Positions 20,783 through 40,389 of a DNA stretch of 45,905 bases are shown here, piece by piece. The notes under the pieces were generated by a model that worked only from the letters and a program-made list of their open reading frames with translations, searched no databases and had not been told where the DNA came from. A program made the position numbers and the translations under genes. Origin of the DNA: Rhodanobacter sp. (GTDB lineage: Bacteria; Pseudomonadota; Gammaproteobacteria; Xanthomonadales; Rhodanobacteraceae); contig DZCM01000008.1 in assembly GCA_022730295.1 (NCBI GenBank), forward strand, positions 1 through 45,905, written 5' to 3'. How positions within the stretch are numbered: position 1 is the first letter of the stretch; each line of letters opens with the position of its first letter.

Positions 20783-20795
20783 TGACGCCAGCGAA

Positions 20796-20844
20796 GGGAG
20801 ATGGCATTCCTCCTCGAACCGCCGCAAGGCTAATGATGCCTACC
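20796..20844 (+). promoter_or_regulatory. Fluoride riboswitch 1 (crcB motif)
   Basis: The sequence follows the crcB motif. A first stem GGAG/CTCC encloses ATGGCATTC. Then come AACC and a GCC-GCAA-GGC stem, and then TAATGATGCCTAC. Loop GGCAT pairs with ATGCC to form the pseudoknot. It heads the crcB gene 135 bp downstream. CCTAC (20839-20843), overlapping the pseudoknot, can instead pair with GTAGG (20866-20870) around an ACCGG/CCGGT hairpin (20847-20861), a plausible alternative fold for gene control. Confidence 0.95.
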
Positions 20845-20978
20845 AAACCGGGCAATCCGGTGCGCGTAGGTTTCGCCGTTCCGCGACGAGCCTTGGGCGC
20901 GCAAGCGATTCCCGTTTTGGTAAGGGTCCGACAAATCGATAGATTTGCCGGGGCAACGTGCCGGGACAAGGATTTGAC

Positions 20979-21371
20979 ATGCGGATTGCGGCTTTTCTTG
21001 CCATCAGTTTTGGCGCTTCCCTGGGCGCCTGTCTGCGCTATCTGTTCGCGCTTTGGTTCAGCCCAATTTTCCCGACCATTCCGCTTGGGACGCTGGCAGC
21101 CAATCTGCTCGGCGGCTTTTTGATGGGCTTGACCCTCGGCGCATTTCTCCAGTTCCAGGCGCTGTCGCCGGATACACGTCTGTTCATCGCGACCGGATTC
21201 CTGGGTGGCTTGACCACGTTTTCCACGTTCTCTGCGGAGGCCGTCACGCTGCTGTTTCGGCGTGAGTATCTGTGGGCGCTCGCCCACATCGGCCTGCATC
21301 TGGTCGGCACGCTTGGCATGACGGTTTTGGGCTTCTTTCTGGCGCGAGGCGTCATGAGGGCATGGGCATGA
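20979..21371 (+). CDS. crcB: Fluoride channel/exporter CrcB (Fluc)
   Basis: This 130-residue dual-topology fluoride channel has four transmembrane helices and exports fluoride from the cytoplasm as an antiparallel dimer. Family marks are GACLRY at 17-21, the GTLAANLLGG segment with the pore Asn42, and the central GFLGGLTTFSTFS with the phenylalanine pair F81 and F84. The start at 20979 has AAGGA just upstream; the in-frame GTG-type start at 20958 would lack a site. It is the first gene of the riboswitch-controlled operon. Its TGA overlaps the DUF190 start. Confidence 0.97.
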   Translation: MRIAAFLAISFGASLGACLRYLFALWFSPIFPTIPLGTLAANLLGGFLMGLTLGAFLQFQALSPDTRLFIATGFLGGLTTFSTFSAEAVTLLFRREYLWALAHIGLHLVGTLGMTVLGFFLARGVMRAWA

Positions 21372-21709
21372 GCATGAGTACACGTAACCAGGGTGTGTAT
21401 CTGCGTTTCTTTGTCCACGAGAACCGCCAGCACCACGGCAAGCTCCTGTACGAGTGGTTGCTGGAACAAGCCAAGGACATGGACATCCCGCGCGGAATGG
21501 TGTTCCGTACGATTGCCGACTTCGGGCGGCGCAAGGTGATGCACGAGCAACATTTCTTCGAGCTGGCCGGCGAGAGCACGGTGCGAGTCGATTTCCTGGT
21601 CACGGATGAAGAAAGGGACCAGTTGCTGCAACTCGTCGACGCCGAAATGTTGAATCTCCCTTACACGTTGTCTCCGGTCGAGTACGGCGTCACCCGGGGT
21701 GATCACTGA
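21368..21709 (+). CDS. DUF190 family protein
   Basis: This 113-residue small soluble protein of the DUF190 family has a ferredoxin-like, PII-like fold expected from the family. Visible family features are LRFFVHENRQHHGKLLYEWLLEQAK and RTIADFG, then HFFELAGESTVRVDFLVTDEE. DUF190 genes are often next to crcB, so a regulatory or accessory role in fluoride export is inferred from context; no function is established. The start at 21368 gives an ATGA overlap with crcB and has GAGGG seven bases upstream; an ATG at 21362 is also possible. The first complex-I-like gene follows after 5 bp. Confidence 0.9.
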   Translation: MSMSTRNQGVYLRFFVHENRQHHGKLLYEWLLEQAKDMDIPRGMVFRTIADFGRRKVMHEQHFFELAGESTVRVDFLVTDEERDQLLQLVDAEMLNLPYTLSPVEYGVTRGDH

Positions 21710-21714: not shown

Positions 21715-22677
21715 ATGTCGCCACTCGCGCGCTATCTCGTCATCAACCTGATCCAGATTGGATTCCTGTTGGTGTTTGCGCCGTTGCTGCAGGGTGTACT
21801 GACGCGCATCGAGGAGATCATCCAGGGCAAGCACGGGCCCAGTATTTTTCAGCCGTACTACGACATCTGGAAGTTGTTCGGCAAGGACGAGATCGTTTCC
21901 GAAGAAAGCTCGTGGGTGTTCCGGTTTGCACCATTGATCGAGTTCGCCATGCCGATATTCGTGGTGATGCTGATCCCGGCACTCACCGCCTACCCGCTGT
22001 TCTTCGCGTTCGCCGGCGACATGATTGCGGTCGGCTTCCTGTTTGCGGCCAGCGGCTTCTTTGTGGCGCTGGCGGCCATGGATACCGGCAACGTGTACGG
22101 CGGGATCGGCGCCAGCCGCACACGCATGGTCGGCTTCCTCGCCGAACCGGTGTTCATGGTGGCATTCTTCACCCTGTCCTACGTCGCCAACTCCACCATT
22201 CCCTATGTCGTGAACGCAAGCTGGGCGGTGTCCTGGGCAGCGATGTTGCAACCGGCACACTTGCTCGTGATCGTCGCCTTCCTGTTGCTGGTACTGGCCG
22301 ACGAAAAGCGGCTGCCGGTGGACAACCCTGCAGGCAAGGCTGAGACCGCGATGATCGGCCATTCCAAGAATCTCGAATATTCGGGCACTGGCGCCGCGCT
22401 CATGAAGTGGGGCGGTGCGATGAAGTTCATGACGGTGCTGATCGTATTCCTGAACGTGATCATCACGCCGTGGGGACTGGCGGCCACGACGCATTGGAGC
22501 GACGTGTTTTTCGCGATCCCGAAAGTGCTCTGGAAGATGTTCCTGTTCCTGCTCGTGCTCGCGGTGATTGAAACCACCCTGGCGAAACTGCGCCTGTTCC
22601 GAATCAGCGAGTTCCTGGCTTCGGCGTTCGTGATTTGCCTCCTGGCGATGGGCGTGCGCCTGGTGGGGATGGGCTGA
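21715..22677 (+). CDS. HyfC/NuoH-like membrane subunit of a complex-I-type complex
   Basis: This 320-residue protein with about eight transmembrane helices is homologous to HyfC/HycD and complex I NuoH, the subunit linking the membrane arm to the peripheral arm. The diagnostic loop after helix 1 reads KHGPSIFQPYYDIWKLFGKDE. Other conserved parts are GGIGASRTRMVGFLAEP and the ADEKRLPVDNPAGKAE loop near the quinone-tunnel region. It is intact and of family length, so the membrane part of the complex looks functional. Its stop overlaps the next start (TGATG). It lies in the operon led by the fluoride riboswitch. Confidence 0.9.
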   Translation: MSPLARYLVINLIQIGFLLVFAPLLQGVLTRIEEIIQGKHGPSIFQPYYDIWKLFGKDEIVSEESSWVFRFAPLIEFAMPIFVVMLIPALTAYPLFFAFAGDMIAVGFLFAASGFFVALAAMDTGNVYGGIGASRTRMVGFLAEPVFMVAFFTLSYVANSTIPYVVNASWAVSWAAMLQPAHLLVIVAFLLLVLADEKRLPVDNPAGKAETAMIGHSKNLEYSGTGAALMKWGGAMKFMTVLIVFLNVIITPWGLAATTHWSDVFFAIPKVLWKMFLFLLVLAVIETTLAKLRLFRISEFLASAFVICLLAMGVRLVGMG

Positions 22678-23345
22678 TGCCCACGTATCTCGCCATCGAC
22701 GGCTTCCTCGCGGCGCTGTTCGTGGTCTTCAGTCTGGGCGTGATCGCGACGCGCCAGATGCTGGGTACGTTGTACTTGTTCATGCTGAACTCGCTGGCGT
22801 TGACCGCTTCGGCAGTGCTGATCGGCATTGCGCTCGGCAGCCCCCATCTGTTCTGGGTGGCGGCGATTACGTTCAGCACCAAGGTCATCGCGATTCCGCT
22901 GGTGCTGCGCTGGTCGGCCGGCCCGCAAATTTACGAGCGGCGCGAAGTCGAACAGGTGCTGACCATCCCGGTTGCCGTATTGATCGCCGCGGTGCTGGCG
23001 CTGGTCGCCTGGATCGTCTCCGCCCCGTTGGTGCATGCGATCAGCGATCGGCCGTTTGCCGCCATCAATCTTCCGACCGGCTTGGTTGCGATTTTCTTCG
23101 GTGCCTTCACGGTCGCGGTGCGACGCGAAGCCATCGCGCAGCTGATGGGTATCCTGATCATGGAGAGTGGCGCGTTCTTCGCGTCGATTTCCATCGTCAA
23201 TGACCTTTCGATCATCACCGAAGTCGCGGCCGCGGTGGACCTTCCGGTTATCGCGCTGGTGATCGGCCTCCTGATCCGCAACATCCATCGCGTCACTGGT
23301 ATCACCCGTGTCGGCCTGCTCGCCGAGTTGAAGGAGCACCGATGA
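22677..23345 (+). CDS. HyfE/NuoK-like membrane subunit
   Basis: This 222-residue, highly hydrophobic protein resembles hydrogenase-4 component E, which combines a NuoK-like part with extra helices. Recognisable parts are MLGTLYLFMLNSLALTAS, FSTKVIAIPLVLRW, and the NuoK-like MGILIMESGAFFASISI with a buried Glu. The start ATG overlaps the previous TGA, and its own stop overlaps the HyfF-like start (ATGA). HyfE family proteins have about 215 residues, so it is full length. It would sit between the HyfC-like and antiporter-like subunits in the membrane arm. Confidence 0.86.
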   Translation: MPTYLAIDGFLAALFVVFSLGVIATRQMLGTLYLFMLNSLALTASAVLIGIALGSPHLFWVAAITFSTKVIAIPLVLRWSAGPQIYERREVEQVLTIPVAVLIAAVLALVAWIVSAPLVHAISDRPFAAINLPTGLVAIFFGAFTVAVRREAIAQLMGILIMESGAFFASISIVNDLSIITEVAAAVDLPVIALVIGLLIRNIHRVTGITRVGLLAELKEHR

Positions 23346-24793
23346 CGCTTGCGTGGATCCTCATCGTGCCCGCCATCGCGACCTTGGCTGCACTGGCGAG
23401 CCGGCGTGCCGCGCCTTGGGTCACGCTGGCATCCGCAGTGGTTGTGCTGGCGCTGTCGGCCAACGCTGCACTGATGGTCGCGGGCGGCGCGACGCTGCAC
23501 GAAGCTTTCGGCGGGTTGTCGCTCGATGCGCTGTCCGCTGTGTACTTGCTTCTGGTGGCATTCGTCGGCGTGACCGCCGCGTTGTATTCGATCGGCTACC
23601 TGCGCGTGCATGACGCCGGGCACGAAGGCACCACGCCGCGCTACCGTGCCTATTGGCCGCTGTACAACCTGTTCATGATTTCGATGCTGGGTGTGCCGCT
23701 GGTCTCAGACCTTGCGGTGATCTGGATCGCGATCGAATTGACGACCATTTTTTCGGCGTTCCTGGTGGCTTACGAGAACCGTTCCGCGGCACTCGAAGCC
23801 GCCTGGAAGTACGTCGCGCTCACCAGCGTCGGCGCGATGATCGCGTTGTTCGGAATGCTGGTGCTGTATTACGGCATCCACCATGCAGGGCAACCGGTAA
23901 CGTGGCCGGGACTGCTGGCTGCCGCCCCGAGCCTGCCACCTGCCTTGCTGCTGGTGTGCTTCGTGTTGTGGCTGGTCGGCTTTGGTACCAAGGCAGGCTT
24001 GGTGCCGATGCATACCTGGTTGCCCGATGCACACAGCCAGGCGCCAGCGTCGATCTGCGCGTTGCTGTCCGGTGTCGAGGTCAGCGGTGCGCTGTACATG
24101 CTGTTGCGCATCTATCCAGCGCTCGTGCGTAACCCGGGGATCGCGCATCCGGGCAACTGGTATCTAGTGGCCGGCCTGCTCAGCGTCGCCGTGGCCGCGT
24201 TCCTGTTGCTGCAGGTGCATGACTTCAAGCGCCTGTTCGCCTATTCGACGATCGAACACATGGGTGTGATCCTTGCCGCCTGCGGACTTGGCATGGGCGC
24301 GCACGAGCTTGGTACCGTTTACCAATTCTTCGCGCATGCCTTCACCAAGTCGTTCTGCTTCTACGCCGCCGGCATGGCGACGATCGTGTTCGGTACCCAG
24401 GAAATCGCCAAGGTGCGCGGGCTCATGAGTCGCGCGCCTGTGGCCGGTTGGGCGTTGCTGCTGGGCGGCCTCGCGATCGCCGGCGCGCCACCGTTCGCGC
24501 TGTTCATTTCCGAGTTCCAGATTCTCGCGACCGGCTTCGCCACCGGCCAGTACGTCGCGACCGGCTTGTTGACGGCGTTGCTGGTGCTGGCATTCATCGC
24601 GATCCTGTACCAGGTAGGTCGTATCGTGTTTGGCGAACCCGCGCAGGCTGCGCCACGCATGAAACTGCCAGCCAGCAGCCTTGCCGCGATGGCGATCGCG
24701 TTCGTGCCGATGCTCGTTTTCGGGTTTTATCTGCCACCGCCATTGCAAGCTTTGATCCATCAGGCTGCGGCGTTGCTCGGAGGTACACCGTGA
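23342..24793 (+). CDS. HyfF/NuoN-like antiporter-type subunit
   Basis: This 483-residue protein of the proton-translocating NuoL/M/N and Mrp antiporter family has about 14 helices. The channel core looks complete. IWIAIELTTIFSAFLV carries the conserved helix-5 Glu. GFGTKAGLVPMHTWLPDAH carries the Lys and the canonical HTWLPDAH. DFKRLFAYSTIEHMG and FFAHAFTKSFCFYAAG carry further buried charges. Among the three antiporter-like subunits here it is the one with the least altered motifs. It overlaps its neighbours by 4 bp on both sides (ATGA before, GTGA after). Confidence 0.92.
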   Translation: MTLAWILIVPAIATLAALASRRAAPWVTLASAVVVLALSANAALMVAGGATLHEAFGGLSLDALSAVYLLLVAFVGVTAALYSIGYLRVHDAGHEGTTPRYRAYWPLYNLFMISMLGVPLVSDLAVIWIAIELTTIFSAFLVAYENRSAALEAAWKYVALTSVGAMIALFGMLVLYYGIHHAGQPVTWPGLLAAAPSLPPALLLVCFVLWLVGFGTKAGLVPMHTWLPDAHSQAPASICALLSGVEVSGALYMLLRIYPALVRNPGIAHPGNWYLVAGLLSVAVAAFLLLQVHDFKRLFAYSTIEHMGVILAACGLGMGAHELGTVYQFFAHAFTKSFCFYAAGMATIVFGTQEIAKVRGLMSRAPVAGWALLLGGLAIAGAPPFALFISEFQILATGFATGQYVATGLLTALLVLAFIAILYQVGRIVFGEPAQAAPRMKLPASSLAAMAIAFVPMLVFGFYLPPPLQALIHQAAALLGGTP

Positions 24794-26361
24794 GCACGCG
24801 CGCGGCACTGCGGACGTTCTTCGGCACCGGGCATCCAGGGCTGGCAGTGCGCGACGTGGGCATGCGCCTGAGCGTGGATTCCGCGCCTGCGGCGCTGCCG
24901 GACATCGCGGCAGCGCTGATGCACGAGCATGGCTGCGGTTTCGCCACGCTGGTAGTGGAAGAAGACGCTACAGGGTTCGTCGCGCGCTATTTTTTCTATG
25001 CGCGCGACGATGCGACCCTGATCGAGATGGTGACGCATGCACCGCCAGGCACGGAGCTGCCGGCGATCAGCGATCGGGTGCACGCCGCCGATTGGCACGA
25101 ACGCGAGGTGGAGGACCTGTTTGGCATCCGCTTCTCGGGCCATCCGTTCCTCGGCGACTTCGTGTTGCACGACCAGGTTTGGCCGGAAGGCATCACGCCC
25201 ATGCGCCGCGAGTTCGATGCCAGCGTGCGCGTGGCACAACCAGGTTTGGGTGAAGATTGGCGGCCGCGCCGGTTGTTGGAGGAAGAGGGGTCCATCGCGT
25301 TTCCGGTGGGTCCGATCTGGGCCGACTACAACGAGGCCGGGTTATGGTTGCTGGAAACCCCCGGCGAACAAATCTACGCCAGCCAAACGCGCCTGTTCTA
25401 CAAGTATCGCGGCGTCGAGAAAATTGCGGAGGGGCGTTCGCCCGCCGGCGGCCTCCTGTTGGCCGAACGCTTCAGCGGCTGCGCGGCGTTTGCGCACGCC
25501 TGGGCGTATTGCGAGGCGTTGGAACGAATTGCCGGCTGCAAGCTGCCGCCGCGCGCACGCGCGCTGCGCACGGTATTCGCGGAACTTGAACGCATTCGTT
25601 ACCACGCGGCCACGATTGCCGAGCTCGCCGGTGCCACCTCACTCGCGGTCGGCAAGTCGATGTCGCAGGAAATCGAGGAGCGCATGCTGTGCCTCTCGGC
25701 CCAGGTGTGCGGACATCGCTTCCTGTTCGGACTATGCGTGCCGGGCGGGCTGGCATGGGACCCGGCCACCGCCACGCTGGCGACGCTGCGCGCCGGTGTC
25801 ACCGATGCCGCGAAGGAATTCGCCAAGCTCGAACGGCTGTTCGTGCACACCTCCAGCTACCTCGACCGCATCGAGGAAATGGGCACGTTGAAGCCCGATG
25901 TCGCCACCCTGTACGGCGTGGTCGGGCCGGTGGCACGCGCATCGGGGCGCAGCGTCGATCTGCGCCGGTCGCTGCCCTACGGTGCCTACGCGGATCATCC
26001 GCCGGAGGTGCCGTGTGAAATCGAGGGCGATGCTTATGCACGGCTGCGCGTTTACTTCGCCGAAATCCGCGCCAGCACTTCCTTGATCCAGGCGCTGCTG
26101 GGCGAGCTGCCGGACGGCCCGGTTGCCGCCGAATGCGCAGCAGCGCCGGGTACCGCGCTCGCATGGGTGGAGGCTCCCGCCGGCGGCACTTTCCATTGGC
26201 TCAGGATCGATGACGACGGACTGATCCGGCGCTGGCGTATCGCGCCACCCGGATTTCGCAACTGGCATGCGTTTCACCGCGCACTTGAAGGTGCCGCATT
26301 CCAGGACTTCCACATCATCATGGCGAGCTTCGGCTTGTCGGTCGCGGAGAGTGACCGCTGA
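24790..26361 (+). CDS. HyfG/NuoCD-like large subunit lacking the [NiFe] site
   Basis: This 523-residue fusion has a NuoC-like N-terminal domain (WHEREVEDLFGIRFSGHP at 102-119) and a NuoD/hydrogenase-large-subunit domain (YKYRGVEK 205-211, RTVFAELERIRYH 260-272). In [NiFe] hydrogenases the nickel is held by RxCGxC and DPCxxC. Here the first motif reads ERFSGCAAFAH, with Ser and Ala at the two Cys positions, and the C-terminus has no cysteine pair (QDFHIIMASFGLS). It therefore cannot carry a [NiFe] centre and more likely serves as a peripheral scaffold or binds another ligand. The start is a GTG overlapping the previous TGA. Confidence 0.88.
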   Translation: MSTRAALRTFFGTGHPGLAVRDVGMRLSVDSAPAALPDIAAALMHEHGCGFATLVVEEDATGFVARYFFYARDDATLIEMVTHAPPGTELPAISDRVHAADWHEREVEDLFGIRFSGHPFLGDFVLHDQVWPEGITPMRREFDASVRVAQPGLGEDWRPRRLLEEEGSIAFPVGPIWADYNEAGLWLLETPGEQIYASQTRLFYKYRGVEKIAEGRSPAGGLLLAERFSGCAAFAHAWAYCEALERIAGCKLPPRARALRTVFAELERIRYHAATIAELAGATSLAVGKSMSQEIEERMLCLSAQVCGHRFLFGLCVPGGLAWDPATATLATLRAGVTDAAKEFAKLERLFVHTSSYLDRIEEMGTLKPDVATLYGVVGPVARASGRSVDLRRSLPYGAYADHPPEVPCEIEGDAYARLRVYFAEIRASTSLIQALLGELPDGPVAAECAAAPGTALAWVEAPAGGTFHWLRIDDDGLIRRWRIAPPGFRNWHAFHRALEGAAFQDFHIIMASFGLSVAESDR

Positions 26362-26978
26362 TGGCAAATTGGACACTCGCGAGCCTGGTACGCGGCATCC
26401 GTACGGCCCGTTGGCCACGCCGCGATGACCTGCCACCCGGTGCGATTCCTGCACGCTGGCACGGTCTGGTTGCGACACCGGCTGAAGGTGAACGAAGCAT
26501 CCGTGACGCTGTGTGGTTTGCCGCGACACCCACGTCGCGCGGCCCGCTGCCACGGCGGTTCCGGCATTCGGTGCATGTGCGCTTTGTCGATGCCGGTGCG
26601 AGTGGTGCCCTGATCAGCGAAGTGCGGCTGCTTGACGCACCGCCCTACAACATGCACCGTTTCGGCATCTTCGTCACGGCGACACCCCGCGACGCGGATG
26701 TGCTGCTGGTGGGTGGCCCGGTGACCGAGGCCATGCGCGAGCCGTTGCGCAAAGCCTACGAAGCGATGCCCGGGCCCAAGCGTGTCGTTGCAATTGGTGA
26801 CGATGCCATCGACGGCGGGGTGTTTGGAAAAAGTTTCGCCAGTGCCGGTGGCGTGGCGGAGGTCATTCCCGTGGACTTCGTGGTACCGGGTTGCCCGCCA
26901 CCGCCGGCCGCGATCATCCAGGGACTGCTCGCGGCTGCTGGTCGAATCACACCGCAAGCGTTCAAGGAGCGCGTGTGA
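26361..26978 (+). CDS. HyfI/NuoB-like small subunit with lost iron-sulfur ligands
   Basis: This 205-residue protein is homologous to HycG/HyfI and complex I NuoB, which hold the terminal [4Fe-4S] cluster with four cysteines. Alignment by eye with the usual GSCNGCDIE, GDC and VPGCPP motifs gives Ser81 and Leu84 in DAGASGALISE and Asp148 in IGDDAIDGG. Only Cys178 in VPGCPP is kept. The fold-defining parts are well preserved (LDAPPYNMHRFGI, DADVLLVGGPVTEAMREPL). The cluster cannot form in the usual way, so electron transfer through this subunit is unlikely. Start and stop overlap both neighbours. Confidence 0.88.
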   Translation: MANWTLASLVRGIRTARWPRRDDLPPGAIPARWHGLVATPAEGERSIRDAVWFAATPTSRGPLPRRFRHSVHVRFVDAGASGALISEVRLLDAPPYNMHRFGIFVTATPRDADVLLVGGPVTEAMREPLRKAYEAMPGPKRVVAIGDDAIDGGVFGKSFASAGGVAEVIPVDFVVPGCPPPPAAIIQGLLAAAGRITPQAFKERV

Positions 26979-29095
26979 CAGCCTTCGCACTGGCGTTCGT
27001 GCTGTTCGCCGCGGGCGCACTGGTTGCCTTTGCGCCAGTGCGCAAAGGCGCCGTTGGTGCGACGTGGCTACTGGTGACGGCAGGCTGTGGCGTGATGATG
27101 GTGCTGGCGATTTTGGCCATGCTGCGAGACGTCACCCGCCCACTTGTCACGCTGGCTCTGCCATTGCTCGGCGCATTCGGGTTTGAACTGACTGCCCTCG
27201 GCGCATTGTTCGTGGCAGTCACCGTTGGCGTGTTCGCGTTGACGCTGCCGTTTGCGTTGCGGGATAGCGCCAGCTTCGCTCCCGCTCGCCGTGGGGCCTT
27301 CGTCGGTCTGATCGTGTTGACGCTGGCCGGCATGCTCGCACTGTTCACTGCCGCTGGCATCGTGTCGTTCATTTTCGCGTGGGAGATTGCTGCGCTAGGC
27401 ATCTGGGGGCTGGTCGGCTTCGAGACGCGGCGCGCCGAACCGGTAGCGGCCGGAACGTTGACGCTGGCGCTGTCCGAAGTTGGCTCGCTGGCTGGTTTGG
27501 CCGGATTATTGATCTTGGCACATGCCGCAGGTGGCAACGGCCTGGATGCCATCGCCGCGGCTGCCCCCACGCTGCCCAAGGTCCTGGTAGTCGCGGGTTG
27601 CGTGCTGACATTTTTCGGGTTCGGGATGAAGGCCGGGGTGGTGCCGCTCAACCTGTGGCTGCCGGCTGCGCACGGCGCTGCACCACGCTCGATTTCGCCG
27701 ATTCTTTCGGGCGCGACCCTCAATCTTGGGTTGTACGCGTTCCTGCGTCTGGACGCACCGCTTGCGCGCACTGACTTTCGCCTCGGGCTGATGATCCTTG
27801 CCACCGGAGCCGTGACCGCACTGATCGGCATCATGTATGCGATGATCGAGCACGACCTCAAACGGCTGCTGGCGCAAAGCTCGATCGAGAACATCGGCAT
27901 CATCACGGCGGGGTTCGGCGCGGGCTTTGCATTCTCCGCGCTCGGACATCCGGTACTGGGCGGTCTCGCGATCATTCCAGCGCTGTACCACATGCTCAAT
28001 CACTCGGCCTACAAGACCTTGCTGTTCCTGGGCGCCGGTGGACTGGATGTGGCCACTGGCACGCATGACCTGAACCGGATGGGTGGCTTGCTCAGACGCC
28101 TGCCGGTCCTCGGCATGTTGTTCATCGTTGGTGCGTTCTGCATTGCGGGGCTGCCACCGTCGAACGGGTTTGCGAGCGAGTGGATGCTGCTGCAATCACT
28201 ATTGCAGGTGGTTGAAGTGTCCGCGCTGCCGGTTCGAATCGTGTTTGCGCTGTCCGGCGCAGCGCTGGCTTTGACCGCAGGACTCGCGGTGACTTGCTTC
28301 ATCATGGTGGTGGCATCCAGCCTGCTCGGCTTGCCGCGTTCGCGGGAAGCCGCGCAGGCGCGGCGTGCGCCGCGCACGGTGTGGATGCCGATGGCCATAC
28401 TGGCTACCGCCTGTTTCGGTCTCGCGATGGTCATCACCGGCATCATCCCGGCGCTCGGGCGTCTGACCGCGCCGCTGGTGGGTGCCGACGCTACCGATGC
28501 GTTGGCGCCCGCGTTTTTTGGCCATGTGCAGGCACTGTCACAGGCGGCGGTCAACGGGCTCACCGATCTCGGCGCGCAGCTCGGGCGCGGCTTGGTGCCA
28601 CTACGTGGTCTCGTCGTACTACACGCGGTCGGCCCGGCGGACTCGGTCGCGTACGCAATGTCCACCGCGCTCAGCTTCGCGGTGATCGTGTTCCTGTTGT
28701 TTGTTGTGTGGTTGCTTGCACGCGGGCTGCGGCATCATCGACAGGTCGCGCGACGGGTGCCGTGGGCTGCCGGCCTTGTACGCATCCGGCCGGAGATGAC
28801 CTACACCGCTACCACGTTTGCCGCACCAGCGCGGGTGCTGTTCAACAGCGTATTCGACCCGGAGGTTGCGCACCAGGAACAACATCGCGGCGCGTTTCTC
28901 ACGGTGAGCCGGCGTCAGGAAGTGCGGGTGAATGTCGTGGACCGCCTCATCATCCACCCGGTAACCGTGGCAGCGCGCTTCCTCGCGCAGACCCTCGCGG
29001 CCGCACACCACGGGCAGGTGACCAGTTATGCGTCCTACATGCTGGTCGCGCTGTTGGTGGCGCTGCTGGCCGTCCGCTATCTGATTGGTTCATGA
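26975..29095 (+). CDS. HyfB/NuoL-like antiporter-type subunit, copy 1
   Basis: This 706-residue membrane protein has about 16 helices and is related to HyfB/HycC and NuoL. The conserved helix-5 Glu (FIFAWEIAALG), the helix-7 Lys (FFGFGMKAGVVPLN), HDLKRLLAQSSIENIG and the HMLNHSAYKTLLFLGAG segment are present. The canonical HTWLPDA is changed to NLWLPAA. The C-terminal segment RPEMTYTATTFAAP matches the HyfB tail. The GTG start overlaps the previous stop (GTGA) and has AAGGAG just upstream. A second, clearly paralogous copy follows after 13 bp. Confidence 0.9.
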   Translation: MTAFALAFVLFAAGALVAFAPVRKGAVGATWLLVTAGCGVMMVLAILAMLRDVTRPLVTLALPLLGAFGFELTALGALFVAVTVGVFALTLPFALRDSASFAPARRGAFVGLIVLTLAGMLALFTAAGIVSFIFAWEIAALGIWGLVGFETRRAEPVAAGTLTLALSEVGSLAGLAGLLILAHAAGGNGLDAIAAAAPTLPKVLVVAGCVLTFFGFGMKAGVVPLNLWLPAAHGAAPRSISPILSGATLNLGLYAFLRLDAPLARTDFRLGLMILATGAVTALIGIMYAMIEHDLKRLLAQSSIENIGIITAGFGAGFAFSALGHPVLGGLAIIPALYHMLNHSAYKTLLFLGAGGLDVATGTHDLNRMGGLLRRLPVLGMLFIVGAFCIAGLPPSNGFASEWMLLQSLLQVVEVSALPVRIVFALSGAALALTAGLAVTCFIMVVASSLLGLPRSREAAQARRAPRTVWMPMAILATACFGLAMVITGIIPALGRLTAPLVGADATDALAPAFFGHVQALSQAAVNGLTDLGAQLGRGLVPLRGLVVLHAVGPADSVAYAMSTALSFAVIVFLLFVVWLLARGLRHHRQVARRVPWAAGLVRIRPEMTYTATTFAAPARVLFNSVFDPEVAHQEQHRGAFLTVSRRQEVRVNVVDRLIIHPVTVAARFLAQTLAAAHHGQVTSYASYMLVALLVALLAVRYLIGS

Positions 29096-29108
29096 ACCGG
29101 GGGCACGC

Positions 29109-31217
29109 ATGACCATCTGGGCCTTTCTTGCTCTAGCCTTTGCCGTGCTTGCGCTGGCCGCGCCAGCGAGGCGCGTGCAACGTGCCGGCTTCATGCTGGG
29201 CGGCTGGGCAGCCGCGGTACTGGTGCTGACCGGCGCTGCGCAAACGCTCCGTGATGGCGCGTCCGTGAACTTCACTCCGGGGGCGCTGGCGATCTTGCCG
29301 GGTTTCGATTTTGCGCTGGATCCACTGCGTGCATTTTTCCTCACCATCGCAGCTGCCGTGTACGGCTTGTCCGTCGCGTTCGTCGCGCGTGATTCGCAAC
29401 GTTTTTCCCCGGCGCGTGCGCGGCTGGTCCTCGGCTTCACGACGCTGCTGTTCGCGGCAATGCTGACCGTGCTGCTGGCGGCGGGCGTGACCAGTCTGAT
29501 CTTCACGTGGGAGGTGATGTCGCTGTCGCTCGTGGCACTGGTGTTTCTCGGTAGCGCTACCCCGGCTACCGCCCGTGCCGGCTTGGTGACCCTGGCGTTC
29601 TCGGAAGCCGGTGCATTGGCGGCGCTAGCCGGGTTGCTGGTGCTTTCGGGCGCTGCCGGCACGCTCTCGCTTGCGGGTATCGCCGCTGCGGTGCCACACA
29701 TGCCAGCCGGCCTCGCGTGGGCGGGATTCATCCTCACCTTCTTCGGCTTCGGCGTGAAGACCGGCATCCTGCCCGTGAATGGGTGGATGGCCGAAGGCTA
29801 TGCGGCGGCCCCGCGCGGAGTGCTGTCGATTTTCTCGGGGGCGACGTTGAACCTCGGGGTGTTCACGTTATGGATCGTCGACGCTCCGCTCGCGATGCAT
29901 GTGCCGAATATTGCCTTGGTCGTGATGGTGACCGGCGCACTGACGGCCATCCTCGGCATCATGTACGCGCTGGCGACCCATAGCCTGACGCGTCTCCTCA
30001 CGCAAAGCTCGATAGAGAACCTTGGAATCGTGGTGGCCGCATTCGGCGCGGGTTTCACTTTCACCGCGATGGGCCATCCCGCGCTTGGTGGAGTGCTGCT
30101 GGTCGCGGGCCTGTACCACATGCTCAACCACTCGGCCTACAAGACGCTACTGTTCATCGGGTCGGGTGCAATCGGTGCCGCCGCCGGCGATGACCTCGAC
30201 CGGCTCGGTGGCCTGATGCGACGGGTGCCGTTGTTCGGCACGTTGTTCCTGCTCGGCGCGTTCGCGATCGCGGCACTGCCACCCTTCAATGGCTTCGTTA
30301 GCGAGTGGCTGACGCTGGAGTCGTTCCTGCGCGTGGTCGAAATCGGCGCGGTCCCGGTGCGCATTGCCGTGGCCCTGTCAGGCGCGTTGCTGGCCCTGAC
30401 CGCCGGGTTGGCGGTGACTTGCTTCGTGATGCTGGCGGCCTCGTCCCTGCTCGGGATTCCACGTTCGCGTGCGGCCGCTGCGGTGCAGCGGATGCCGGCT
30501 AGCGCGACGGTGCCCATGGGCGTGTTGGTGGCGATCTGTTTCGCTCTCGCGATGCTCGCCACGGCGATCATTCCCTTGCTCGGCAGCTTCGCCGGCAAGC
30601 TCACCGGGGTCGATCCAACGGCTGGCATGGTGCCGGCGTTCTTCGGCCATGTGCAGGTACTCTCGCAAGATGTCGTCGCGGCGCTCACCAGCCTCGGCGC
30701 ACAGCTTGGGCGCGGTCTGGTGCCGCTGCGCGGTCTGGTGGTGTTGCACGCGGGTCCCGGCGGCGACCCGGTGATGTACGCGATGTCCACCGTCCTCAGC
30801 TTTGTGGTGATTGCCTTCCTGCTGATCGTCGTATGGGCCATTGCGCGCGGCGTGCGTCGCCACCGGCAGATCGCGCGGCGCGCACCGTGGGACGCTGGTC
30901 TTGCCCGCATCCGGCCGGAAATGACCTACACCGCCACCACCTTCGCCGCGCCTGTCCGCGTGCTGTTCCACGCCGTGTTCGATCCCGAGGTCTCGCGTGA
31001 GGAAGAACGTCAGGGTGCGTTCCTCACGGCGATGAGTCACCACGAAGTGCGCACGCACCTCGTGGATCGCCTGCTGCTGAACCCATTCACCACCAGGATG
31101 CAGGCGACCGCCGCCTGGCTCGCGCGGCTGCACCATGGCAAGGTCACCCTGTATGCGACTTACGTGCTGGCAGCACTGGTGGTCGCGACGCTGGCTGCTG
31201 CGGCGAGCTTGGCGTGA
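29109..31217 (+). CDS. HyfB/NuoL-like antiporter-type subunit, copy 2
   Basis: This 702-residue paralogue of the preceding gene has the same layout and the same C-terminal RPEMTYTATTFAAPVRVLF block, so the pair arose by tandem duplication. The helix-5 Glu (IFTWEVMSLS), the helix-7 Lys (GFGVKTGILPVN) and SLTRLLTQSSIENLG are kept. The HTWLPDA region is further diverged to NGWMAEGYAAAPRG, and the KR of the helix-8 region is TR here. It would be a third antiporter-like channel in the membrane arm. A GGGGG ribosome-site-like run precedes the ATG. Its stop overlaps the histidine phosphatase start (GTGA). Confidence 0.9.
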   Translation: MTIWAFLALAFAVLALAAPARRVQRAGFMLGGWAAAVLVLTGAAQTLRDGASVNFTPGALAILPGFDFALDPLRAFFLTIAAAVYGLSVAFVARDSQRFSPARARLVLGFTTLLFAAMLTVLLAAGVTSLIFTWEVMSLSLVALVFLGSATPATARAGLVTLAFSEAGALAALAGLLVLSGAAGTLSLAGIAAAVPHMPAGLAWAGFILTFFGFGVKTGILPVNGWMAEGYAAAPRGVLSIFSGATLNLGVFTLWIVDAPLAMHVPNIALVVMVTGALTAILGIMYALATHSLTRLLTQSSIENLGIVVAAFGAGFTFTAMGHPALGGVLLVAGLYHMLNHSAYKTLLFIGSGAIGAAAGDDLDRLGGLMRRVPLFGTLFLLGAFAIAALPPFNGFVSEWLTLESFLRVVEIGAVPVRIAVALSGALLALTAGLAVTCFVMLAASSLLGIPRSRAAAAVQRMPASATVPMGVLVAICFALAMLATAIIPLLGSFAGKLTGVDPTAGMVPAFFGHVQVLSQDVVAALTSLGAQLGRGLVPLRGLVVLHAGPGGDPVMYAMSTVLSFVVIAFLLIVVWAIARGVRRHRQIARRAPWDAGLARIRPEMTYTATTFAAPVRVLFHAVFDPEVSREEERQGAFLTAMSHHEVRTHLVDRLLLNPFTTRMQATAAWLARLHHGKVTLYATYVLAALVVATLAAAASLA

Positions 31218-31873
31218 TCGCAACCCCGGTCGAGCGACCGCCACGGCAACACGACGACAACGTCACGCTCATCCTGGTACGCCATGGACACGTCGACGGC
31301 ATCGATCCGCCAAGTTATCGCGGCCAACGCGAGCTACCCCTGACACCCCTGGGCCAGCGTCAGGCCAAGGCACTGAGTCGCCGGATCGTGGCGGAGTGGC
31401 AACCCGGGGCGGTCTTTACCAGCGCTCTGGGTCGCTGTGTGGAAACGGCCAAGGCGATTGCCAAACCGTTCGACCTGACCCCGGAAGTCATCCCCGGCTT
31501 GATCGACATCAATTACGGTGCGTGGCAAGGGATGACCGACGTGGAGGTGCGCGCCCGGTGGCCAGACGCGTGGGCGCTCTGGCACCACAGCCCGCAGTTC
31601 GCGGAGTTTCCTGGCGGCGAAACGATGCCGGCGTTCGTCAAGCGCGCGACGAACGCGTTGCATGCCATTTTGCATGCGCAGCGTGGCCACACTGTTGTGA
31701 TCGTGACGCACGATAGCGTCAACCGCGTGTTGTTGCTGCACGCATTGGACCTGCCGGTGTCGCACTACCGCACGCTTGCGCAGGCGCCCTGCGCGCTCAA
31801 TGCGCTTGTATTTGACCGCGGACAATTCACGGTTCGCAGCGTGAACGAAACGGGACATCTGCTCGGGCTCTGA
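31214..31873 (+). CDS. Histidine phosphatase (phosphoglycerate mutase-like) family protein
   Basis: This 219-residue protein is of the histidine phosphatase branch. The catalytic RHG is at R23-H24-G25 (LILVRHGHVDG), the second active-site His is H166 (VIVTHDSVN), and LTPLGQRQAKAL is the usual helix. It is last in the riboswitch-led operon and begins in a GTGA overlap with the membrane subunit. The substrate is unknown. Short members are often phosphatases and not true mutases. An extra enolase lies in the opposite operon of the same island, so a link to phosphoglycerate metabolism under fluoride stress is tempting but unproven. Confidence 0.85.
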   Translation: MIATPVERPPRQHDDNVTLILVRHGHVDGIDPPSYRGQRELPLTPLGQRQAKALSRRIVAEWQPGAVFTSALGRCVETAKAIAKPFDLTPEVIPGLIDINYGAWQGMTDVEVRARWPDAWALWHHSPQFAEFPGGETMPAFVKRATNALHAILHAQRGHTVVIVTHDSVNRVLLLHALDLPVSHYRTLAQAPCALNALVFDRGQFTVRSVNETGHLLGL

Positions 31874-35445: not shown

Positions 35446-36723
35446 TCAACGCATGAACGCCGCGCGCCCGGCAAAGCGCGCGCGCTCGCCAAGTTCGTGT
35501 TCGATGCGCAGCAAGCGGTTGAACTTGGCCGTCCGCTCGCCGCGGCAGCCGGAACCGGTCTTGATGTGGCCACAGCCAAGCGCGACAACGAGATCGGCGA
35601 TGAAAGTGTCTTCGGTTTCGCCGGAGCGGTGCGACACGTAGCAGCCGTAACCGGCGGCCTTGGCCACGGCCGCACACTCCAGGGTCTCGGTGACTGTGCC
35701 AATCTGGTTGGGTTTGATCAGGATGGAATTGGCGACGCCCTCGCGGATTCCCTTGCGCAGCAGCTCGGGGTTGGTGCAGAAGATGTCATCACCCACGATC
35801 TCCACACGGGTCCCGAGTTTCCGGGTAAGTTCCCGCCAGCCATCCCAATCCTGCTCCGCGAGAGGATCTTCAAGCAGGATCACGGGATATCGGTTCAGCC
35901 ATTGTTCCCACAGTGCAGTCATCACGGCGCTGTCGCACTCGTACTGATCCGACTTGAAGAAGCGATAGCGGCCGTCGTGCCACATCTCACTCGCAGCCGG
36001 GTCCAGCGCAATCGAGACGTCGTTACCCGGCTTGTACCCGGCCGCGCCGATGGCCTCCAGGATCAGTTCGATCGCCTGCGCGTTGTTGCCGATGTCGGGC
36101 GCAAAGCCCCCTTCGTCGCCAACGCCGGTGGAAAATCCCTTCGAGTGCAATAGCGATTTGAGGGCATGGAAGACTTCTTCGGCCATACGGATCGATTCGG
36201 CAAAACTGTCCGCGTGATGCGGCACGATCTTGAACTCCTGGAAATCGATCGTGTTGTCCGCGTGGCAGCCCCCGTTGATGACGTTGAGGCAAGGCACCGG
36301 CAGCAAGGTCGCGCTGTCGCCTCCGAGGTGGCGGTACAACGGCAGTTTGCGCGACGCCGACAGCGCGCGGGCATAGGCTATCGAAACAGGGAGGATCGCA
36401 TTGGCGCCCAACCGCGATTTGCCCTTGGTGCCGTCGACTTCGCACAGATACCGATCGAGTGCAGACTGCTCCCCGCAGTCCTTGTTGGTGAGCGCAGCGG
36501 CAATCTCGCCGCGCACATTCGCGACCGCCTTGCGTACGCCCTTGCCTGCGTAGCGAAGCGTGTCGCCATCGCGCAACTCGGCAGCTTCGTTTTGACCAGT
36601 GGACGCGCCGGATGGCGTGATCGCGTGGCCTTCGGAACCATCCTCCAGCCGTACAGCAACTTCGACCGTGGGGTTGCCGCGCGAATCGAGAACCTCGAGC
36701 GCATCGATGTGCGTGATTTTCAT
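35446..36723 (-). CDS. eno: Enolase (second-type copy in the fluoride island)
   Basis: This 425-residue enolase converts 2-phosphoglycerate to phosphoenolpyruvate. All key residues are present: H154 and E163 (GGCHADNTIDFQEF), E204 (GDEGGFAP), metal ligands D241, E285 and D312, K337, the H365-R366-S367 loop and K388. It differs from typical enolases at several normally fixed places: LLEDPLAE instead of SIEDGLAE, PVPCLN instead of PVPMMN, and LIKPNQIG. Fluoride blocks enolase with Mg and phosphate, and enolase genes occur behind fluoride riboswitches. A fluoride-tolerant or extra copy is therefore a reasonable reading. It lies 36 bp downstream of the SNF2 gene; the usual pyrG-eno context is absent. 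Confidence 0.95.
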   Translation of the reverse strand: MKITHIDALEVLDSRGNPTVEVAVRLEDGSEGHAITPSGASTGQNEAAELRDGDTLRYAGKGVRKAVANVRGEIAAALTNKDCGEQSALDRYLCEVDGTKGKSRLGANAILPVSIAYARALSASRKLPLYRHLGGDSATLLPVPCLNVINGGCHADNTIDFQEFKIVPHHADSFAESIRMAEEVFHALKSLLHSKGFSTGVGDEGGFAPDIGNNAQAIELILEAIGAAGYKPGNDVSIALDPAASEMWHDGRYRFFKSDQYECDSAVMTALWEQWLNRYPVILLEDPLAEQDWDGWRELTRKLGTRVEIVGDDIFCTNPELLRKGIREGVANSILIKPNQIGTVTETLECAAVAKAAGYGCYVSHRSGETEDTFIADLVVALGCGHIKTGSGCRGERTAKFNRLLRIEHELGERARFAGRAAFMR

Positions 36724-36759
36724 GGGTGGCTACCGTGCAAGGAAAGGGATGGGTGATGG

Positions 36760-39700
36760 TTACGCGCGCACTGCTGGATCGAACAACTTGTACAGATCGT
36801 CCGGATCGAGGCCTGCCAGGGGTGCGCTTGCACCGTCGAGCATGCCATCTGCCAATTCGCTCTTCTGGCGTTTCATCGCCTCCATCTTGTCTTCGATCGT
36901 GTCCTCGCACAGCAATTTGTAGACGAACACGGGCCGCTCGCGCCCGATCCGGTGCGCGCGATCGATTGCCTGCATTTCGACCGCCGGGTTCCACCACGGC
37001 TCGTAATGGATCACGGCATCGGCTGCAGTGAGGTTGAGGCCGACGCCGCCGGTCTTCAGGCTGGCCAGCAAAATCGGTGCAGCGGCCGACTGGAAGCGGC
37101 GCACCGGAACGGCGCGATCGCCGGTATCGCCGGTAAGCGTCTCGTATTCCAGCTGTTCGCCATCCAATGCCTTGCCAATCAATGTCAGCATCGACGTGAA
37201 CTGGCTGAATACCAGCACCTGCCGGCCGTCCTCACGCAAAGACTGGATCAACTCCAGCAAGGCGTCGAGCTTGGCCGATCCGGGCGGGTCGGCCAGGTCA
37301 GTGAGGAGACGCGGATCGCAGCACGCCTGGCGCAGGCGCAGCAGCGCCGACAGCACGATGATGCGTGACTGTTCATGGTTGTACCGGGAAACAGCTTCGC
37401 GCACATGCTCGGACAAGGCCAGCCGCAACGACTCGTAGAGTCGGCGTTGCGGCTCGCCCATGGCAACGCGCAGTACCGTTTCGGTCTTGGGCGGTAATTC
37501 GGGTGCGACCGTGGCTTTGGCGCGCCGGAGCAGGAATGGTGCAATGCGTTGGCGCAAAATGGCGCGCCGCGCATCATCTGCCTGCTTTTCGATCGGTTGG
37601 CGGAAGCTGCGGTTGAACGAACGGTAATCGCCGAGATAACCCGGCAATACCGCATCGAAATGCGCCCACAACTCGCCGAGATGGTTTTCCAGCGGCGTAC
37701 CAGTAACCACGAGGCGATGTTCCGCGCGCAACTTGCGCGCTGCCCGGGCGGCCCGGGTCAGCGGATTCTTGATCCACTGCGCCTCGTCCATTACCAACAT
37801 CGAATATTCGGTGTCCTGCAACACATCGAGGTCGATGGCGAGCAGGGCGTAACTCGTGACAATGACATGCGCGCTGGCCAGTTGCTCTCGCAACGACGCG
37901 CGCCTGGGTCCGGAATAATTTACGCACTGCAGGGTCGGCGCAAAACGCGCTATCTCGTCCAGCCAGTTGAACACGAGGCTGGTGGGTGCGGTGATGAGTG
38001 CCGGATGCTGCAAGCGCCCGGCTGCGTGCTCGACCAGCAAATGGGCGATGACTTGCACCGTCTTGCCGAGCCCCATGTCATCGGCAAGCACGCCGCCGAG
38101 CTGGCACTGGCGCAGCACTTGCAACCATTGCAAGCCTTCGCGCTGGTAGCCGCGCAGTTGGCCGTGAAAGTCCGGCGGTGGCGCAACCGTGGTTGCGGAT
38201 GACGCCGCGGCGCGCAACGCGGCCAATGTATATGCGACGCTCGCAGCTTTCGCGCCTTCCACGGCGACGCCTTGCTGCTGCAGGGTCTCGCTCAGAACCA
38301 TCGCCTGCGAACGCGTGAGCCGCAGTTGCCGCACTTCGCCATCGCGTGGCCGATCAAGACATTCCATCAATGGCGCCATCCATTCCCGCAGGCGCGCCAG
38401 TGGCACTGGCAGCCAGCGATTGGCGCCGACCGGGGCGAGCCAATGTGCAGCGTGCGATTCGCCCGATTCGGGCGTGAGGGAGAATGCGTGTCGGGCGATG
38501 CCATCCAGTACCAGGGGCAACAAGTCGATAGTCTCGCCCTCGACCTCGGCCGCCAGTTCGAATTGCGCGAAACCGGCGCGCTCGCAGTCGTCGAGCGTGG
38601 CTCTGAGCCTGGTCTCAACCGGCAGCACCGTAAAGGGAAGTTCGGGGTCGTATTCGAGTGTGAAGCCCATATTGCACAGTGACTGCAGCGCGGTTTCCAG
38701 CGCGGCAAAGGTTTCGGCGCCACCCTGGTAATGGCTGCGGTGGCCGAGCGCGCCCTCGCCGGGTACTGGCGCCAGCACGCGGTACGCATCCGGTAACAGG
38801 GTGGACAGGTTGGTGAGCCCGGCTTGAGCGAGTGCGCGCGACGCTACGGCCTCACCATCGATGTCGCGTTGAAAGGTCACGTAGCGATCGCCGACTTTCC
38901 TGGCAACTCGCTGCTGCCACGTCTCATTGGCAAGCGGCAAACGACAGCCGGCGTAATCGGCCCATGCGCGGACGTGGAATACATGATCGCCGCGTTGCGC
39001 GTGGCGTGAGGCGCGCAGTACCACGATTGGTCGCAAAGACGCGTCCAGCGTTTGCATCGGTGCGGGTTGCGGTGGCGGCGGCACGCCGTCGAGCAACCTG
39101 TGCGGTGGCCAGGCGGCTGCCAGTGCTGGAACGCCAGCCGGCGGTACCGGTGGCATCAGTCGCACAATGTCCCAGGCAGTGCGTGAGAGCTGCAAACGGC
39201 CGAGTTCTCCGCTGGCCAGATCGAGATAGTGCAGTCCATCGAGGTCGACCATGTGGACGTCTGACTCCAGCGGCCACTCCAGCGCAACGCGCGTGTCACC
39301 GCGAGCGTCTTGCTGCCAGCGCCACGGCGGCTGGCGCGGGGCCGCAAGCCGGATCGGTTGCAAGGTTGCGGCATGTCTGCAAACACCGGCCTTGAGAAAA
39401 TGGGCAAGGAGACCGGCACCGCTCTTTCCCGCCAGCAGGAAGTGCGGCTCACGCGCACGCTTGCGCGACTGCGTCATGGAAAGTTGTGCCTGCCACAGCA
39501 TGGCCCGCCGGGACAGATGCGGCCGTGCGCGCATCTGTTCCACGGGCAACCAGCACCGCTGATCGGAACCTTGCGCGAGCACCAGCCGCACGCTCAGCTG
39601 CGGCAGTGGATTGCCGTCGTCCAGACCCAGCAGGCAGAGCAGTTGCCAAGTCTCGTGTGATGCAGCCAAGGATGGGCGTGGCGCCGTTGGCTCCTCCAGC

Positions 39701-40086
39701 GCCTGTGCGCACCGCAACCAACGCTCGGCCGGCGTCAGCGCACGTGGCCAATCGAGCAGTTGTTGCAACCGCAGCAGCATGGCAGCGGCATGCACGCAGC
39801 GTTCGCTGGCGCAACTGCACTGAGACTCGAGCGTGTCCTCGCCGAACAACGCGAACAAATAGACCGTGACGCGTTGGCGCTGGCCGCCCGCGTCATCCAC
39901 TTCGCATTGCAGCGCTCGCGCAGTGCTGCCATCTGGCTGAAACCATGCCAGTGGCTGATGCCACCGTGCCGAGCGCGCCGCAAGCGCTTCCGCCTGCTTG
40001 AGCGTCGCGCGGCCGAAGAACGCCGGCAGGGAAAGCCGGCGCACTTCATCCATGAGTACGCAGCGGCGTTCTTCCAGTGGGTTCAT
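36760..40086 (-). CDS. SWIM zinc-finger SNF2-family helicase
   Basis: This DEAD/SNF2-type double-stranded-DNA translocase has about 1108 residues. A SWIM zinc finger (CSC...CVH, about residues 90-99) lies near the N-terminus. Walker A is DDMGLGKT (Lys about 675), the DEAQ box is about 767-770, then LVVTGTPLENHLGELW. The C-terminal helicase lobe has GVGLNLTAADAVIHYEPWWNP and QAIDRAHRIGR. Such proteins remodel protein-DNA complexes or act in repair and transcription recycling. Three starts are possible: GTG 40119 after GGGGG, ATG 40086, and ATG 40053. It is the first intact gene after riboswitch 3, but a MITE-like element sits between. Confidence 0.92.
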   Translation of the reverse strand: MNPLEERRCVLMDEVRRLSLPAFFGRATLKQAEALAARSARWHQPLAWFQPDGSTARALQCEVDDAGGQRQRVTVYLFALFGEDTLESQCSCASERCVHAAAMLLRLQQLLDWPRALTPAERWLRCAQALEEPTAPRPSLAASHETWQLLCLLGLDDGNPLPQLSVRLVLAQGSDQRCWLPVEQMRARPHLSRRAMLWQAQLSMTQSRKRAREPHFLLAGKSGAGLLAHFLKAGVCRHAATLQPIRLAAPRQPPWRWQQDARGDTRVALEWPLESDVHMVDLDGLHYLDLASGELGRLQLSRTAWDIVRLMPPVPPAGVPALAAAWPPHRLLDGVPPPPQPAPMQTLDASLRPIVVLRASRHAQRGDHVFHVRAWADYAGCRLPLANETWQQRVARKVGDRYVTFQRDIDGEAVASRALAQAGLTNLSTLLPDAYRVLAPVPGEGALGHRSHYQGGAETFAALETALQSLCNMGFTLEYDPELPFTVLPVETRLRATLDDCERAGFAQFELAAEVEGETIDLLPLVLDGIARHAFSLTPESGESHAAHWLAPVGANRWLPVPLARLREWMAPLMECLDRPRDGEVRQLRLTRSQAMVLSETLQQQGVAVEGAKAASVAYTLAALRAAASSATTVAPPPDFHGQLRGYQREGLQWLQVLRQCQLGGVLADDMGLGKTVQVIAHLLVEHAAGRLQHPALITAPTSLVFNWLDEIARFAPTLQCVNYSGPRRASLREQLASAHVIVTSYALLAIDLDVLQDTEYSMLVMDEAQWIKNPLTRAARAARKLRAEHRLVVTGTPLENHLGELWAHFDAVLPGYLGDYRSFNRSFRQPIEKQADDARRAILRQRIAPFLLRRAKATVAPELPPKTETVLRVAMGEPQRRLYESLRLALSEHVREAVSRYNHEQSRIIVLSALLRLRQACCDPRLLTDLADPPGSAKLDALLELIQSLREDGRQVLVFSQFTSMLTLIGKALDGEQLEYETLTGDTGDRAVPVRRFQSAAAPILLASLKTGGVGLNLTAADAVIHYEPWWNPAVEMQAIDRAHRIGRERPVFVYKLLCEDTIEDKMEAMKRQKSELADGMLDGASAPLAGLDPDDLYKLFDPAVRA

Positions 40087-40165
40087 CGGCTGTGTTACCG
40101 CGCTTGCCCGCGTGCTCACAGCGCCCCCGGCACGGAGGCATTTCGCGTTAGGGCAGGGGGGTTGT

Positions 40166-40389
40166 CAGGGTGTTGAAAAACACCCTGTTGATGAGGCCCA
40201 TGGACGGGCCGCCGCGGAGCAAGCAAAGCGAGTGCTGGATCCGGCGAAGCCGAGTCCGGACAAATCCGTCGGGAACGGATTTGGACAGTCGCAGGCTGGC
40301 CCGAAGGGGGCATGCCAAGCACGGCATGCACACATGCGCCGGATTCGGCGCGTTGAGCAAGTGCAGGACGGCACTCTTTCAACAATCTG
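40166..40389. mobile_element. MITE-like hairpin-rich element
   Basis: The left end CAGGGTGTTGAAAA and the right end (minus strand) CAGATTGTTGAAAG form imperfect terminal inverted repeats 224 bp apart. Inside is a chain of stems. They are a 9-bp stem with GAAA loop (40166-40187), GGCCC/GGGCC (40195-40210), a 9-bp CAAATCCGT/ACGGATTTG (40261-40283), GCATGCC/GGCATGC (40310-40329), GCGCCG/CGGCGC (40336-40351) and AGTGC/GCACT (40360-40375). No transposase and no clear target duplication are seen. It lies in the leader between riboswitch 3 and the SNF2 gene. Confidence 0.6.

Follow-up and report, generated by a model that had tools for sequence, protein, structure and literature searches.

Results

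Hydrogenase-4-like genes behind a fluoride riboswitch

The DNA analysed here (the window) is a stretch of 45,905 nucleotides from Rhodanobacter sp. (GenBank assembly GCA_022730295.1, contig DZCM01000008.1) and forms contig C51 of a draft genome of 2.27 Mb that is 81.6% complete. Seven genes for a complex related to complex I and hydrogenase 4, all read in the same direction on the + strand (21715-31217), encode HyfC, HyfE, HyfF, HyfG, HyfI and two HyfB relatives, a series that an earlier note had described from the sequence alone and that family matches recovered in full. HyfC (21715-22677) is a NuoH-like membrane subunit (Pfam NADHdh) whose closest solved chain is HycD of Escherichia coli formate hydrogenlyase (FHL; 7z0s_D), while the family assignment of the membrane subunit HyfE (22677-23345) relies solely on a match to NF008556, hydrogenase 4 membrane subunit, at 56 bits and below that model's cut-off of 136. 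HyfF (23342-24793) is antiporter-like (Proton_antipo_M; matched to MbhH, 6cfw_H), as are HyfB1 (26975-29095) and HyfB2 (29109-31217), both assigned by Pfam and solved-chain matches. Between them lie HyfG, a NuoCD/HycE-like protein that starts at 24790 (GTG) or 24862 (ATG) and ends at 26361, and HyfI, a NuoB/HycG-like protein (26361-26978), both recognised by Pfam and alignments. From hyfC onward the genes overlap by 1-4 bases (hyfG being counted from its GTG), the sole gap being one of 13 bases between hyfB1 and hyfB2.

Ahead of this run and on the same strand, a fluoride riboswitch aptamer (20788-20849; RF01734, 55.1 bits against a gathering threshold of 34) precedes the gene for the fluoride exporter CrcB (Fluc), which starts at 20958 or 20979, ends at 21371 and is identified by NCBIfam NF010792 above cut-off and by Pfam CRCB. 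The fluoride control that the earlier note had claimed is backed by a real riboswitch, its position being before crcB and 866 nt ahead of hyfC. crcB overlaps the gene for a DUF190 protein (21368-21709; PF02641), whose stop at 21709 is followed by the hyfC start at 21715, and since these three genes follow each other almost without spacing, a single transcript from crcB through DUF190 to the hyf genes is likely. A scan for promoters and terminators found nothing, and folding of the leader (riboswitch through to a little beyond the crcB start) gave a z-score of -1.65, which was uninformative. Downstream, a histidine phosphatase gene (31214-31873, + strand; Pfam His_Phos_1) overlaps the hyfB2 stop. 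Of the ten proteins encoded by the run, CrcB and the phosphatase included, none matched a ferredoxin or molybdopterin-oxidoreductase family in Pfam, in agreement with the claim that neither a HyfA/HyfH ferredoxin nor a formate dehydrogenase gene is present.

HyfG lacks the nickel-iron ligands

Window HyfG aligns with E. coli HycE (7z0s_E) across most of its length (1.2e-54), and its single-chain model (predicted local distance difference test, pLDDT, 90.4) finds the same chain as its best fold match with a template-modelling score of 0.94. Where HycE reads RVCGICG, however, window HyfG reads RFSGCAA, with S and A at both ligand positions, and its C-terminus (SVAESDR) is devoid of a CxxC, so that the four cysteines which ligate nickel-iron (NiFe) in the large subunit of formate hydrogenlyase or hydrogenase 4 are gone, as had been claimed. 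This is not peculiar to the window. A scan with the HyfG alignment returned at least 463 confirmed relatives, and the best 80 of these (L044-L123) come from Pseudomonadota, Acidobacteriota, Myxococcota, Nitrospirota, Vulcanimicrobiota, Verrucomicrobiota, Bacillota and others; family counts given here include the window and exclude three outgroup loci (L118, L119, L122) and three duplicates. The first NiFe pair occurs in none of 78 HyfG rows, with one of its two cysteines present in L060, L063 and L074, and the last pair in none of 73 complete ends. As a positive control, the NiFe pair is present in the outgroups L119 and L122. Despite this loss, HyfG has 45 invariant positions over 56 rows.

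The His and Tyr with which NuoD of complex I reduces quinone (H38 and Y87 in Thermus thermophilus) are not conserved in HyfG when profile alignments to NuoCD are compared, although this is a weak test. As for the maturation of NiFe cofactors, HypD is required; its gene is absent from the genomes of the window and of two close relatives, Castellaniella caeni (L044) and Eoetvoesiella caeni (L045), and over the 31 genomes examined, some of them incomplete drafts, it was found in 15 and missed in 16, one of the latter being an outgroup's.

HyfI of the window and two relatives has one cluster cysteine left

At the four positions where NuoB-like proteins ligate the N2-type cluster, window HyfI has S81, L84, D148 and C178, and the claim that three of the four cysteines are lost is borne out; the full ligand set of cluster N2 of respiratory complex I is missing here, as are iron-sulfur (FeS) sites able to carry electrons, which most relatives have. 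HyfI of four further loci (L035-L038) starts with a short segment whose CP and CxxCxxC make up a ferredoxin-like motif for a single cluster, and this segment is deleted in the window. Over 70 HyfI rows the CxxCxxC stands ahead of the fold in 63; the seven without it are the window, L044, L045, L105, L076, L077 and L084, of which the last three may be cut or mis-started (194 residues in L076, 166 in L077). N2-type cysteines number four in 45 rows, three in 21, two in one and one in three, the one-cysteine proteins being those of the window, C. caeni and E. caeni. Together, the losses in HyfG and HyfI leave the window complex without a complete nickel, iron or iron-sulfur site among those known in the family. 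"Redox-dead", as the earlier note put it, suits this three-member clade and does not suit the family, 66 of 70 HyfI proteins keeping three or four cysteines; Acidithiobacillus montserratensis (L048) is one of the cluster-bearing relatives.

The model of window HyfI (pLDDT 88) has 7z0t_G as its best fold match; like that of HyfG it is a single chain modelled without cofactors and cannot reveal what fills the sites. We also considered a stand-in HyfI with clusters encoded elsewhere and rejected it, as a second HyfI was sought in the genomes of the window, L044 and L045 and solely NuoB-like matches turned up (37% in the window genome, 38% in the other two). The three cluster-free members share further changes. 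In HyfG, the SSSFLDR motif has Y for F (F in 74 of 74 others) and FQDFP has H for P (P in 70 of 70 others), and L84 of HyfI is common to the three and rare elsewhere; these clade-specific changes suggest a re-made cavity as a lead.

A separate observation concerns the 21 HyfI rows with three cysteines, in which the fourth one (GCPPPP) is replaced by Asn, Asp, His, Gln, Ala or Phe, mostly Asn or Asp (for example L065, L067, L071, L080 and L085), and which may hold a three-cysteine cluster.

The membrane arm keeps its ion-path residues

Helix numbers of the buried residues are those that we take from work on complex I and on the membrane-bound hydrogenase Mbh. With these, the claim that the membrane subunits retain buried Glu and Lys holds for transmembrane helices TM5 and TM7 (E132 and K217 in HyfF, E137 and K219 in HyfB1); a Glu is also present on TM12 (HyfF E391, HyfB1 E402) and HyfB2, too, carries the TM7 Lys. 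Among the HyfF rows with a letter at the position, E132 is found in 71 of 75, K217 in 76 of 76 and E391 in 78 of 78, and H332 and K336 join them as near-invariant over 78 aligned rows. Near-invariant over 71 aligned HyfB rows are E137, K219, E305, H343, K347 and E402, and in HyfC and HyfE many charged residues are likewise near-invariant. The arm is of the HycC/HycD type seen in formate hydrogenlyase and hydrogenase 4 and has the antiporter-like subunits that also characterise energy-converting-hydrogenase-related (Ehr) complexes.

Fluoride control is a family trait

To survey riboswitches we used a model of our own (R1) built from 21 riboswitches of such loci, the window copy among them (57.3 bits). 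In the 71 rows readable upstream of hyfC (14 further loci lie outside this count), R1 places a same-strand copy within 1 kb of hyfC in 64, and within 400 nt in 55 of these; the rows without such a copy are L049, L055, L100, L104 and the three outgroups. Once three duplicate contigs and the outgroups are set aside, 61 of 65 loci, drawn from the best 80 hits plus two, have the riboswitch. Because R1 had been trained on such copies, 59 R1-positive loci were cross-checked against Rfam, which gave a hit above cut-off at the same place in 47, a hit below cut-off in three and none listed in nine; the Rfam model also scores above cut-off in the window, L035, L037 and L038. At the genome level, host genomes with an RF01734 hit above cut-off number 27 of 30 and 44 of 50, and control genomes 4 of 14. 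Fluoride control is a family trait, with the riboswitch nearly universal among the relatives tested.

The same holds for a second lineage, type II (L041, L134-L140), which was found through HyfG or HyfI similarity and has a NiFe-less HyfG. In all eight of its loci hyfC is preceded by a riboswitch at a distance of 28-180 nt, that of L140 having been known before this locus was selected. Type II forms a separate clade (support 100) with CNGCESE in HyfI and its readable cysteine motifs kept. It co-occurs with type I in some genomes, or adjoins crcB-DUF190-phosphatase genes. Three other NiFe-less loci that we call Ehr-like (L039, L040, L042) have no riboswitch by R1 and do not belong to the type I clade.

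A single loss of the clusters in a clade under purifying selection

In a quick HyfG tree the window, L044 and L045 form a clade (Shimodaira-Hasegawa-like approximate likelihood ratio test, SH-aLRT, 99) nested within a clade of 12 rows (SH-aLRT 100), and the nine other rows keep all four cysteines. Cluster loss is one event and not noise. Ratios of nonsynonymous to synonymous change (dN/dS) among the three are 0.11, 0.09 and 0.22 for HyfI and 0.06-0.19 for HyfC, HyfE, HyfF and HyfG, rough values as dS in pairs with the window approaches or exceeds 1; over these five genes the cluster-free clade is under purifying selection. No HyfI match at 1e-45 exists in any of 15 same-genus genomes, which suggests that the window operon arrived by transfer. 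Draws of 274, 398, 233 and 150 genomes, queried with HyfI (HyfG for the 398), gave no further cluster-free members among matches above threshold. Four matches fall in the window's own family, and L145, L146 and L147 keep four cysteines, while L148, whose start is cut, keeps the three that can be read; the single new match from the draw of 150 (L153) has three cysteines plus Asn.

Two conjugative Burkholderia cenocepacia plasmids (NZ_CP073671.1, NZ_CP073707.1) carry a distant HyfG relative (37%).

Neighbouring genes and other fluoride-linked sites

Open reading frames (ORFs) next to hyf loci were surveyed at 30 loci (156 of 231 ORFs; the 25 commonest families of 99 and of 103) and include crcB, DUF190, enolase and pyrophosphatase. 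DUF190 also adjoins crcB at L065, L099, L133 and L137, and at the latter three the run extends to the phosphatase. Dynamin-like GTPases account for nine of the 156 neighbour ORFs (e.g. L076:16455-18500 and L085:19038-21062), plus one in the window.

The right half of the window (35446-45762) looks like a fluoride island. A second fluoride riboswitch (40556-40624, - strand; Rfam 35.1 bits) lies ahead of genes for an SNF2 helicase (36760-40119) and enolase (35446-36723), both on the - strand, and a weak riboswitch-like site (40706-40784, + strand; 31.3 bits, below the cut-off of 34) lies ahead of two MutS-like genes and the dynamin-like GTPase gene. Contig C10 of Eoetvoesiella caeni, a named strain, has a dense fluoride island, where positions 36802-59119 hold nine riboswitch matches in about 22 kb, eight above the Rfam cut-off.

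Discussion

Our data lead us to propose, as a reading that we hold about as probable as all others together, that the window clade has a fluoride-induced and gradient-driven exchanger of protons and cations which protects internal pH without electron transfer. In this model, a member of the superfamily that unites complex I and group 4 hydrogenases would be induced by fluoride and move ions: hydrogen fluoride would enter and acidify the cytoplasm, CrcB would release the fluoride ion, and the Hyf-like complex would restore internal pH by exchanging H+ against Na+ or K+, driven by gradients and acting much as Mrp does, while the HyfG-HyfI arm would be retained as a structural or gating piece. 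The task would seem to need no electron transfer because the clade keeps everything except the redox parts, and since one clade dropped these parts and kept regulation, scaffold and ion path, the shared task may be ion movement able to run on gradients. PMC11139923 describes entry of fluoride as a weak acid that lowers internal pH and proton-motive force, and ranks Na+/H+ antiporters next after exporters among riboswitch-linked classes. Somewhat short of an even chance, in our estimate, is the broader proposal of a fluoride-induced, gradient-driven exchanger of the complex I type that has shed its redox cofactors but keeps its catalytic-arm scaffold and ion pumps. It would be natural evidence that the membrane arm of this superfamily can run without electrons, and what fluoride regulons list as "formate hydrogen lyase" would be a complex for ion homeostasis. 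The earlier view of an ion-translocating machine without electron transfer is supported by the lost electron sites and the near-invariant residues of the ion path, yet only within a clade of three.

Several of our findings weigh against the exchanger proposal. FeS ligands are kept by nearly all relatives, which makes it probable that most of the family depends on electron transfer; the cluster-free clade, of which three members are known, could be a changed or reduced machine rather than a guide to the shared task. Retention of buried residues does not extend to TM8, where the Lys of MbhH is an Asn in HyfB1. Ferredoxin domains do occur among the neighbour ORFs (in at most three) and so does molybdopterin oxidoreductase (in one). 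With HypD encoded in about half of the host genomes, hydrogenase maturation is not foreign to these hosts, and the incompleteness of the window genome leaves room for an absent partner gene. Finally, conservation of the scaffold could also reflect a regulatory role or some other catalytic one.

One rival is a redox-driven, Ehr-like pump in general. Electrons from some donor would travel through the N-terminal and then the N2-type cluster, reach an acceptor located in the cavity of HyfG and so drive ion pumping, the window clade being a reduced offshoot with leak or exchange activity alone. The prevalence of CxxCxxC and of at least three N2 ligands speaks for such a pump, whereas the neighbour survey reveals no recurring redox partner among the 25 commonest families, the quinone His and Tyr are not conserved and the cluster-free clade is left unexplained; we regard it as a serious but on the whole unlikely option. 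A quinone reductase of the complex I type was rejected on the same, weakly tested residues. Less probable still would be a HyfG-HyfI arm that gates the membrane arm upon binding a metabolite or ion (a nucleotide, quinone, Mg-F or phosphate species), with conformational coupling and a new, non-redox driver. Strong conservation of HyfG in the absence of NiFe and the signs of a re-made cavity would suit this idea, but Pfam adds no binding motif or domain to those typical of the superfamily and the argument comes down to conservation. That the complex itself exports fluoride, a possibility also raised in the earlier note, finds nothing in its favour except riboswitch control; the exporter CrcB is encoded in the same gene run and the membrane subunits bear proton/cation residues of the Mbh/Mrp type, so we consider it very improbable.

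Decay or mis-sequencing of the operon might come to mind, too, given that residues conserved elsewhere are lost and that the window stems from a draft genome. As the same losses recur in two strains of other genera, with open frames and dN/dS well below 1, a pseudogene or sequencing error was rejected and retains hardly any credibility. The published reading, a formate hydrogenlyase mounting a metabolic response to fluoride, can appeal to its name in PMC2864571 and PMC11139923 and to E. coli FHL-1 as the source of the closest solved chains. Absence of the first NiFe pair from every row, of formate dehydrogenase from the run and of HypD from the window, L044, L045 and 13 more genomes argues otherwise, and a formate hydrogenlyase or any true hydrogenase was rejected on NiFe ligands, HypD and neighbour genes; we assign it next to no likelihood.

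Part of this picture is already in print. A link between the fluoride riboswitch and genes named "formate hydrogen lyase" dates from 2010 (PMC2864571), PMC11139923 also names formate hydrogenlyase among riboswitch-linked genes, and Ehr complexes are described in PMC6349859. The riboswitch, which the earlier note took as the mark that sets this locus apart from Ehr complexes, loses that standing with its near-universal presence in the family and its printed link to such genes. Our literature search, with most subscription papers outside its reach, found no paper that states a fluoride-linked complex without a NiFe site, or a cluster-free form. It has long been asked how complex I and its relatives couple chemistry to the movement of ions, and a close relative minus the chemistry, present in two named culture-collection strains, makes it possible to ask whether gradients or another ligand drive the ion-moving half. 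This suggests that formate hydrogenlyase as a metabolic fluoride response, a recurrent theme in the fluoride literature, needs re-reading as pH and ion defence.

Among known systems, Ehr complexes, as defined in PMC6349859, are group 4 hydrogenase-related with Ni/Fe ligands lost and antiporter-like membrane subunits. The likeness that the earlier note saw to them is sound, the differences being the fluoride riboswitch of the window complex and, in its clade, the additional loss of FeS ligands. E. coli FHL-1 (7z0s, 7z0t), or hydrogenase 4, provides the best solved chains for HyfG, HyfI, HyfB1, HyfB2 and HyfC and, for the first two, the best fold matches; in contrast to it, the window run has no NiFe site, ferredoxin or formate dehydrogenase subunit, and HyfB1 keeps the TM7 Lys where HycC has Leu. 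With Mbh of Pyrococcus furiosus (6cfw) the window shares MbhH-like subunits with TM5 Glu and TM7 Lys, whereas its NiFe and FeS sites are lost, as is the TM8 Lys in HyfB1. The type II complexes are alike in their NiFe-less HyfG and the riboswitch ahead of hyfC but differ in forming their own clade with CNGCESE in HyfI. Mrp Na+/H+ antiporters are not known to have homologues of NuoB, NuoD and NuoH, and the window complex differs from them by its HyfC, HyfG and HyfI. What it has in common with Mrp is a set of homologous antiporter-like subunits (matches to 6z16 and 7qru), the absence of a redox cofactor and a proposed role in pH and ion homeostasis.

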